Below, piece by piece: positions 7,428 to 57,896 of a stretch of DNA of 64,000 nucleotides; position 1 is the first letter of the stretch, and each line of letters starts with the position of its first letter. Under the pieces are notes generated by a model. It had not been told where the DNA came from and ran no database searches. It saw nothing but the letters and a program-made list of their open reading frames with translations. Source of the stretch: Methylocystis rosea SV97 (GTDB lineage: Bacteria > Pseudomonadota > Alphaproteobacteria > Rhizobiales > Beijerinckiaceae); contig NZ_KB889963.1 of the NCBI RefSeq assembly GCF_000372845.1, positions 558,001 to 622,000 on the forward strand, given 5' to 3'. A program made the translations under genes and the position numbers.

Positions 7428-7486
7428 CGCTCAAAGGAGGCGTTACACTCTCATATGGACTCGGCCTGATCCGTCGCTTGGAGTTT

Positions 7487-7593
7487 GTCATTCCCGGCAG
7501 GCCGAAGGCCTGACCGGGAATCCAGAGCCAATCCAAGAATGCTGGTCGTGCTCTGGATTCCCGATCACGCGCTTCGCGCGCGTCGGGAATGAC
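7487..7593. repeat. Palindromic intergenic repeat, type A (copy 1)
   Basis: A ~107-bp composite palindrome. The left arm begins GTCATTCCCGGCAGGCC and reads GGGAATCCAGAG; the right arm CTCTGGATTCCCGATC ends GTCGGGAATGAC and is its imperfect reverse complement. Each arm also contains its own small hairpin (AGGCCGAAGGCCT; CGCGCTTCGCGCG). The same element occurs inside rsmA at 57453-57551. Minus-strand translation of both gives the shared peptide VIPDARE..DRESRA. It follows rsmD and may also act as a transcript-stabilising or terminating structure. Confidence 0.85.
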
Positions 7594-7621
7594 AGCCGTT
7601 CCGTTCAAACGGATTTTTGAA

Positions 7622-41439: not shown

Positions 41440-41477
41440 GCGCTCCCATTCCGTGCCCGTAAGCGTCCCCTTTCCGC

Positions 41478-41607
41478 GTCATGCCCGCGCTTGTCGCGGG
41501 CATCCACGGAGACGTATCGGCTCCGCTTGAAAGGCTGTAATACGCTTCAATGACCGGGGATTACGCAGCATCACCGCGTGGATGGCCGGGTCAAGCCCGG
41601 CCATGAC
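41478..41607. repeat. Palindromic intergenic repeat, type C
   Basis: Terminal arms GTCATGCCCGCGCTTGTCGC(GGGCATCCACG) and (CGTGGATGGCC)GGGTCAAGCCCGGCCATGAC are imperfect reverse complements about 30 bases long, at the two ends of a 130-bp element. Each arm is itself a small hairpin. The element ends 24 bases before the acs ATG and creates a spurious 18-codon N-terminal extension of the acs frame. Confidence 0.82.
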
Positions 41608-41631
41608 GAATTCGAAGGCGTCAGAACAAGA

Positions 41632-56592: not shown

Positions 56593-56952
56593 ATGGCGCC
56601 TATTGCTCTCAAGCGCGTTTATGAGCAAGCCGAAGCGGAAGACGGAACCCGCGTGCTCGTCGATCGGCTTTGGCCGCGCGGGCTGCGCAAGGACAAGGCG
56701 GACCTTGATCTCTGGGCGAAGGACGTTGCGCCAAGCAATACGCTGCGGCGCTGGTTCGACCATAGACCTGAGCGGTGGGAAGAATTCCAGAAGCGCTATC
56801 GCGCCGAACTTGCCGCGCCCGAGGCGCAGCCGCAGGTCGAGGCGCTTCGCGCATTGACGCGCAAGGGCCGCGTCACATTGCTCTATGCGGCGCGCGATGA
56901 ATCGATGAACAACGCCGTCGTGCTGCGAGACGATCTGCGCAAGCGTCACTGA
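56593..56952 (+). CDS. DUF488 family protein (YeaO-like)
   Basis: A 119-aa protein of DUF488/YeaO type. The family signature is [20 protein letters not shown] (about residue 20), then [20 protein letters not shown] and [17 protein letters not shown]. The fold resembles a small MazG/SAM-independent enzyme, but biochemical function is unknown. It follows gmk by 31 bases and overlaps the convergent rsmA 3' end by 7 bases. Confidence 0.9.
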
Positions 56953-57896
56953 GCCAAAAGCGCATTGGCCAGAGCGACGAAGCCCACGACGTCGATTTCT
57001 TCCGCGCGTTTGGTTTCGTCTATTCCGGCCGCCACGAGCAGCGCCGACGCGTCGACGCCAAGCGACTTCAAACTTTGCCGCAACATCTTGCGGCGCTGTC
57101 CGAAGGCGGCTTGCGAGACGCGCGACAACGCGCGTGGATCGCAGTGAAGCGGCGTGGGATTTGGCGTCAGCTCAATGACGGAAGAGGTCACTTTCGGTGG
57201 CGGCGTGAAGGCGGCGGGCGACACATCGAAGAGAATGCGCGCTTTCGTGCGCCAGCCGCACAGCACCGCGAGCCGACCATAATCGGCGCGCTCTTTCGGC
57301 GTCGCGACAATGCGCAGCGCGACCTCTTTTTGAAACATCAGCACATAGCGATCGAAGACCGAGGGCCAGGGTTCCGCTGCGATCCACCGCGTCAGCAGCG
57401 CCGTGGCGACGTTATACGGAAGGTTGGCGCAGATGCGCGCAGAAGCTCCGTTGTCATTCCCGACGGGCCGAAGGTCGAGCGGGGAATTGGCATTTTTTTC
57501 GGAATCTGCCCTGGATTCCCGATCGCTCGTTTCACGAGCGTCGGGAATGACAGGCGCGTGAGTCCGCACGAGCGCTGCAATGTCTGTCTCCAGCGCATCG
57601 CCTTCGACGATCGTCAGCCGGCCTGGATAATACGCTGCAATCTCTTCGAGCGCCGGCAAACAACGAGGATCGCGTTCGACGGCGATGACTCGCGCGCCTT
57701 GCTCGAGCAGCGCGCGCGTCAGCCCGCCGGGACCGGGCCCGATCTCGACGATGATCGTGTCATCGAAAGGTCCGGCGGCGCGGGCGATGCGCGCGGTGAG
57801 ATTGAGATCGAACAGAAAGTTCTGTCCAAGCGATCTTTTTGCGTCGAGTCCGTAACGGGCGACGACCTCTCGCAGCGGCGGCAGCGCGTCGGCCAC
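56946..57896 (-). CDS. rsmA: 16S rRNA (adenine(1518)-N(6)/adenine(1519)-N(6))-dimethyltransferase with a 33-codon palindromic-repeat insertion
   Basis: Dimethylates A1518 and A1519 of 16S rRNA (KsgA). The 316-aa protein has [20 protein letters not shown] (about residue 18), the SAM site [20 protein letters not shown] (about residue 49), [19 protein letters not shown] and the catalytic [15 protein letters not shown] (about residue 160). Between the last two, bases 57453-57551 are a palindromic intergenic repeat translated in frame, so the protein is ~33 residues longer than homologues. The insert lies in the loop before motif IV. The reading frame is intact, so the enzyme is probably functional. 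The GTG start directly follows the pdxA stop. Confidence 0.94.
57453..57551. repeat. Palindromic repeat, type A (copy 2), in frame inside rsmA
   Basis: The element starts GTCATTCCCGACGGGCCG and ends GCGTCGGGAATGAC; arms pair as GTCATTCCCGACGC/T... with GGGAATCCAGGG-type internal ends. It is 99 bp, exactly 33 codons, and its minus-strand translation ([16 protein letters not shown]...) shares VIPDARE..DRESRA with copy 1 at 7487-7593. No stop occurs in the rsmA frame. Confidence 0.9.

Follow-up and report, generated by a model that had tools for sequence, protein, structure and literature searches.

How did a palindromic repeat come to be translated as part of a conserved 16S rRNA dimethyltransferase, and what moves the repeat family to which it belongs? 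The question is raised by the window, meaning the whole 64,000-nucleotide stretch of DNA analyzed here, which derives from a 3.9-Mb Methylocystis genome (G000). A sequence-only reading of the window had described a palindrome that is translated within rsmA as 33 codons, in frame and without a stop, and a second copy of the same element in an intergenic position. Both copies of the palindrome are confirmed, and the features concerned are as follows.

56946..57896, minus strand: rsmA (ksgA), 16S rRNA dimethyltransferase, 316 codons, GTG start (TIGR00755, PF00398)
57452..57552, minus strand: type 1 (T1) palindromic element, a REP dimer, translated in frame within rsmA (TGTC...GACA)
57512..57552, minus strand: intact CGTC-type REP unit of the rsmA insert, with a TGTC tag, stem ATTCCCGA/TCGGGAAT, and CCA tail
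57452..57511, minus strand: remainder of the rsmA insert, with a spacer and the second REP unit, which is decayed (by alignment) and now fails the CGTC definition
7486..7594, minus strand: intergenic-looking T1 element with two intact head-to-head CGTC units
41477..41608, strand not given: head-to-head T4 dimer, of another CGTC REP family (CGTCATGCCCG...)

The ORF that contains the insert was identified as RsmA by a profile search (218.9 bits for TIGR00755 against a cut-off of 171), in which PF00398 was also matched. Its T1 copy is 101 bp long and contributes 33 codons (core at 57453-57551) without a stop. The copy at 7486-7594 translates on the minus strand as VIPDAREARDRESRA and appears to be intergenic, given that the longest ORF across it scores as non-coding. 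T1 is built from a pair of outer arms (TGTCATTCCCG/CGGGAATGACA), two hairpins that vary, and a central stem that encloses a ~25-nt spacer. Both window copies fold better than shuffled sequence, with z-scores of -4.0 for the rsmA copy and -8.1 for the other.

T1 elements form a multicopy family of CGTC REPs

That the two window copies represent a genuine repeat is borne out by the genome as a whole, in which we found 40 unique T1 sites (77 covariance-model hits before both strands were merged). They include two weak sites (E values of 0.07-0.08) and a fragment of 53 bp. The covariance search scored 150 of 5,284 first-look candidates, and thus some T1 copies may have been missed. We found 22 exact matches in G000 to a gapped pattern in which 28 bases are fixed, compared to none for the reversed pattern. 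When 20 copies were aligned, 97.0% of cells pair, versus 21.8-44.6% in a slid alignment, and 7 of 37 stem pairs have changed on both sides, versus a mean of 2.0 after shuffling (0 of 500 shuffles were as high). A chance palindrome is ruled out by the fold z-scores, the reversed-pattern control, the 40 sites, and the covariation.

The coding sequence of a conserved gene lies clearly on both sides of T1 at two of the 40 sites, which are those in rsmA and cobB. The remaining sites, some of which lie within long ORFs or close to the ends of genes, were judged by codon score and by eye. Several T1 elements (for example, at C1:3286695, 565485, and 3078097 of G000) are embedded in a longer repeat whose outer ends are inverted and resemble ATCCGTTCGAAC...GCGAACGGATCA. 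This longer repeat was found at 6 of the 40 sites by a motif scan and at more by eye, and it is absent from the rsmA copy.

T1 can be assigned to a published class. CGTC REPs, as described by Di Nocera, De Gregorio, and Rocco in 2013 (PMC3733652), carry a CGTC, TGTC, or CCTC tag, a stem of 8-9 bp that starts with AT, and a CCA tail, and they occur mostly as head-to-head dimers and mostly in alphaproteobacteria. T1 likewise has a TGTC tag, an 8-bp stem that starts with AT, and a CCA tail, is present in many copies as head-to-head dimers, and has some intragenic copies, with one intact unit in rsmA. It differs in its loops, which are longer than the norm of 4-5 nt for CGTC REPs, are self-complementary, and make their own hairpin; other loop types are on record for Bradyrhizobium and others (PMC3733652). 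On applying the published definition with one stem mismatch tolerated and with AC taken as well as AT at the stem start, we found a CGTC unit in 33 of the 40 T1 sites and two opposed units in 24 of them.

The sequence-only reading had likened the insert to Rickettsia palindromic elements (RPEs) and had treated such a process in a free-living bacterium as new. The likeness stands, in that T1 is a multicopy, lineage-specific palindrome, predicted to be disordered when translated, that lies in frame in conserved genes (here rsmA and cobB), whereas the host here is a free-living methanotroph. The novelty was overstated, for REPs within genes of free-living bacteria had already been published along with the amino acids that they encode (PMC3733652). 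The link to Rickettsia is also closer than that reading had it, because RPE-4 and RPE-6 are themselves CGTC REPs according to the published classification, in a class that takes in the Neisseria dRS3 elements as well (PMC3733652). The in-frame insert in rsmA is a further case of a known type of event.

Two candidate movers of T1 were rejected. First, the reading of T1 as a MITE dependent on a DDE transposase was set aside because no target-site duplication was seen: direct repeats are not in excess at the 33 of 40 sites with placeable ends (p = 0.27). The insertion boundary could not be read by comparing filled and empty rsmA loci because the empty relatives have diverged. Second, a RAYT was rejected as the mobilizer of T1 in G000, where PF01797 has no match (9 of 39 genomes of the genus have a match, 8 of them above the cut-off).

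Palindromes flank small GIY-YIG nuclease genes in Methylocystis

Our analysis extends beyond the sequence-only reading in three respects, which are a second palindrome at the same RsmA loop, a T1 element in CobB, and T1 elements that flank a nuclease gene. The last of these is a 97-aa GIY-YIG gene outside the window (G000 C1:1377925-1378215), which is intact and is surrounded by three T1 elements.

C1:1377617-1377723: T1 element
C1:1377799-1377906: T1 element
C1:1378228-1378334: T1 element

The copies between which this gene lies are nearly identical. A second small GIY-YIG gene in the same genome (C1:365656-365874) is flanked by elements of the T4 type, the kind represented in the window at 41477-41608. 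Like UPF0213/YhbQ-type single-domain GIY-YIG nucleases, the small nucleases are about 97 aa long and have a single PF01541 domain. The one relative of solved structure that we found is BH0048, a UPF0213 protein (1zg2; E value of 2e-4).

The small GIY-YIG genes found in the genus form four clades, each with its own flanking family: T1 (clade A), T3 (CCTCATCCTGAGGAG; clade B), T2 (TCATTGCGAG; clade C), and T4 (clade D). The set consisted of 46 rows that correspond to 44 distinct genes, with one G003 region entered twice (L252 and L288). Genes with a stop codon were excluded before the tree was built, namely the T1-type gene L260 and a T3-type gene present as both L252_2209 and L288_2305. On the remaining 43 rows (42 genes), the match between clade and element is complete, with three changes, which is the minimum, over 14 location clusters; these clusters are rough, since T3 and T4 genes are mixed in one of them, probably via repeats in the outer flanks. 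A single T1 core is also present beside the T2-type gene L273, and the T1 cores of the T1-type gene L243 are confined to one flank.

The T1 and T2 motifs came first from rsmA. However, the T3 and T4 motifs were derived from the flanks of these same nuclease genes, and therefore the perfect clade match is partly built in. For this reason, tests that do not depend on the motifs carry more weight. The two 260-bp flanks have a stretch of at least 14 nt in common in 8 of 9 rows of clade A, 11 of 17 of clade B, 5 of 6 of clade C, and 14 of 14 of clade D, compared to 1.25% of 2,074 control windows. In the strict CGTC scan, none of the 6 nuclease-flank rows for T2 and none of the 17 for T3 is positive, and therefore we do not class these two families as CGTC REPs.

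This arrangement resembles that of GTAG REPs and RAYT genes (REPtrons, REPINs), in which a REP-flanked gene is also accompanied by many solitary dimers elsewhere. The two systems differ in the enzyme, which is a Y1 transposase there and a GIY-YIG nuclease here, and in the tag, which is GTAG there and TGTC/CGTC here. GIY-YIG genes that are flanked by elements and interrupted by stop codons, as observed in G024 (L260) and G003 (L252), suggest nuclease turnover.

The link between GIY-YIG nucleases and CGTC REPs is the new part of this analysis, and we found no report of it in the open-access PMC literature. The term “GIY” does not occur in the main text of either PMC3733652 or PMC12306157, and in the gene table of a Moraxella paper RayT and a GIY-YIG gene appear only as separate lines.

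Many nuclease genes outside the genus also have flanking REPs

The nuclease genes from outside the genus number 70 and come from 68 loci, of which 28 are among the 29 best-scoring (L290-L318) and 40 were taken one per genome down the ranked list; on the way down, hits close to the end of a contig were skipped in G099, G190, and G312. By the published definition, CGTC REPs are present on both sides of 29 of the 70 genes, compared to 0 of 3,100 paired windows. At least one side is positive for 47 genes, compared to 2.5% of 6,200 single windows, and neither flank has a strict CGTC REP in the other 23. A stretch of at least 14 nt is common to both flanks of 52 genes, to be set against the control rate of 1.25% given above, and is absent in 18.

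A same-locus control was available for the 40 larger loci. Both flanks are positive for 17 of 42 nucleases, compared to 4 of the 220 other genes (p = 5e-12). A common stretch of at least 14 nt is present for 30 of 42 versus 5 of 220 (p = 1e-24). The p values here and below are too small because the rows share common ancestry. The flanks of E. coli yhbQ, which encodes a small GIY-YIG nuclease, lack CGTC REPs, whereas many of the proteobacterial relatives examined have them. Because CGTC-type palindromes often flank their genes in Proteobacteria, the small GIY-YIG nucleases are candidate movers of these elements.

Nucleases and elements co-occur among genomes

Our phylum-wide sample comprised 398 genomes, of which 101, including G000, have a relative of the nuclease (E value of 1e-10 or better). 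Genomes rich in REPs, here meaning at least 15 CGTC-like units (a threshold picked after the list had been seen), make up 48 of the 101 genomes with the nuclease versus 21 of the 297 without it (p = 6e-18). The remaining 53 nuclease-carrying genomes are not REP-rich, and the 21 REP-rich genomes without the nuclease have no match to it.

In Methylocystis, the corresponding element family is present wherever the cognate nuclease is (9 of 9 genomes for T1, 14 of 14 for T3, and 5 of 5 for T2), with the interrupted L260 gene counted as a nuclease of G024. Elements are still present, in lower numbers, in genomes that lack the cognate nuclease (13 of 30 for T1, 13 of 25 for T3, and 24 of 34 for T2). 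Presence of element and nuclease is associated for T1 and T3 (Fisher p of 0.002 and 0.003) and is not associated for T2 (p = 0.30), while unit numbers are higher with the cognate nuclease for all three families (rank test p of 2e-4 for T1, 3e-4 for T3, and 1e-3 for T2). Since elements persist where the nuclease is absent, they either outlive it or move without it in some lineages. G007, G014, and G022 have 339, 120, and 159 T2 units, respectively, with no T2-type nuclease among the matches listed for them. G006 and G007 each contain more than 200 T1 units and more than 330 T2 units, and they are good candidates for ongoing element spread.

A possible mobilization system for CGTC REPs

We propose that a CGTC REP dimer entered rsmA with the reading frame preserved, and that its family is mobilized by the small GIY-YIG nuclease whose gene the elements flank. 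We assign this explanation as a whole a probability of about 0.65. It builds on the identity and copies of the element, its in-frame retention and nearly neutral evolution (see below), and the adjacency, clade match, and co-occurrence of nuclease and element, from which we infer nuclease cleavage, copying, and nuclease-driven movement.

According to this proposal, a miniature mobile element would have entered rsmA in a Methylocystis subclade with the frame kept. A dedicated single-domain GIY-YIG nuclease, encoded between copies of its own element, would mobilize the family in a manner comparable to RAYTs and GTAG REPs. The nuclease might nick or cut its cognate hairpin, or a similar target, and host repair could then copy the element into the break, with no intermediate in which a transposase is covalently bound. 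GIY-YIG enzymes hydrolyze DNA and are not known to rejoin it, and therefore a transposase-like cut-and-paste process is unlikely. The missing target-site duplications at 33 sites are compatible with cutting and repair copying, but they are no proof of it.

The 2013 survey reported that a dedicated transposase for the CGTC class is apparently absent, and the nuclease link offers a concrete candidate for the mobilizer about which that survey left a question (PMC3733652). The matched pairs of clade and element also predict which nuclease acts on which repeat.

The main rival explanation, which we consider unlikely, is that the nuclease gene is a homing-type passenger that targets the REP dimer, and that the REPs are relics or are moved by other means. 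Homing GIY-YIG enzymes have specific target sites, and the observed adjacency and clade match fit targeting equally well as mobilizing. Insertion sequences have likewise been reported to target REPs (PMC1525189). However, the higher unit numbers found within the genus alongside each cognate nuclease argue against a passenger. The enrichment of the nuclease in REP-rich genomes is also not needed by a passenger, yet such genomes do offer it more targets.

A second alternative, which we judge to be quite improbable, is that the rsmA insert is a tolerated and now immobile REP, moved there in the distant past by an enzyme that is now extinct or by some generic transposase, and that GIY-YIG nucleases are irrelevant to its arrival. 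Extinct REPtrons or broad-spectrum transposases have indeed been proposed for CGTC REPs (PMC3733652). Furthermore, the rsmA insert is old, because it is common to 13 of the 30 species read and is partly decayed, and T1 units are present in 13 of the 30 genomes of the genus that lack a T1-type nuclease. Against this stand the intact T1-type nuclease gene of G000 between near-identical copies and the hundreds of T1 and T2 units in G006 and G007.

Evolution of the RsmA loop and a second gene with T1

The sequence-only reading placed the insert in a loop between the acidic motif and NLPYN and raised the possibility that it is disordered and restricted to one lineage. This placement is right, and the loop is predicted to be disordered: in the AlphaFold model of RsmA (mean pLDDT of 85.9), residues 123-147 have values under 50. 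The insert is also lineage-specific. Among 80 loci from named genomes, the loop is long in 8, which are 6 from Methylocystis/Methylocystaceae and 2 from Alphaproteobacteria MAGs at 84-86% identity, and short in the other 72, which include other genera and at least three Methylocystis.

Of 39 Methylocystis genomes, 37 yielded an RsmA match, and 30 of these contributed a locus at which the loop was read; the seven omitted are G001, G004, G013, G014, G016, G021, and G033. The loop holds T1 in 13 of these loci, T2, which is a different palindrome family (CCGTCATTGCGAGC...), in 6 (one a short remnant and one diverged), and neither in 11. The T1 reading frame is preserved across the 13 species, and three of the T1-bearing loops (G020, G024, and G025) share a similar internal deletion. 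On a tree of RsmA and CobB from which the palindrome segments had been removed, the three loop states need seven changes. T2 by itself needs four changes even when strongly supported branches alone are trusted, and T1 needs four on the tree, or two when strong branches alone are counted. Transfer of whole alleles could account for part of these changes.

Among 10 species (45 related pairs), dN/dS is 0.88 for the insert versus 0.096 for the rest of rsmA, and the bootstrap range of pN/pS for the insert is 0.60-1.41. The simplest reading is that of a tolerated, nearly neutral, disordered insertion, which persists because it is open in frame and occupies a surface loop in which disorder of the peptide carries little cost. 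It is very improbable that the 33 residues were instead co-opted as a functional loop (for RNA contact or regulation) and kept by selection, as the preserved frame and the lower pS of the insert might suggest, because the insert has a dN/dS near that of neutral sequence with the bootstrap range given above and has suffered internal deletions, and because 6 relatives carry a different palindrome and 11 carry neither. The pS values concerned are 0.194 for the insert and 0.326 for the rest of rsmA in the 10 species, and one possible cause of the lower silent divergence is conversion from other copies.

Our proposal can be extended to the phylum, such that CGTC-type REPs, including the rsmA copy, would be no orphans but would each be moved by their own GIY-YIG nuclease, as a transposase-free counterpart of the REP-RAYT system, and their insertions would repeatedly seed disordered segments in permissive loops of conserved proteins. 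We give this broader statement roughly even odds. It would join the protein-decorating palindromes best known from Rickettsia with those of free-living bacteria in one framework, in which RsmA and CobB serve as naturally repeated cases of mobile DNA seeding disordered segments in conserved enzymes.

The cobB gene (cobyrinate a,c-diamide synthase; NF002204, 516.9 bits) is located at C1:1774152-1775588 of G000 (L202:1453-2889), and its in-frame T1 element lies between the two conserved halves of the gene. The peptide VIPDA..DRES is common to both proteins and reads VIPDA..SDRESS in CobB. T1 occupies the CobB linker in 8 of the 30 loci read, and a diverged T1-like segment is present in G029. The linkers of several further relatives contain other long segments.
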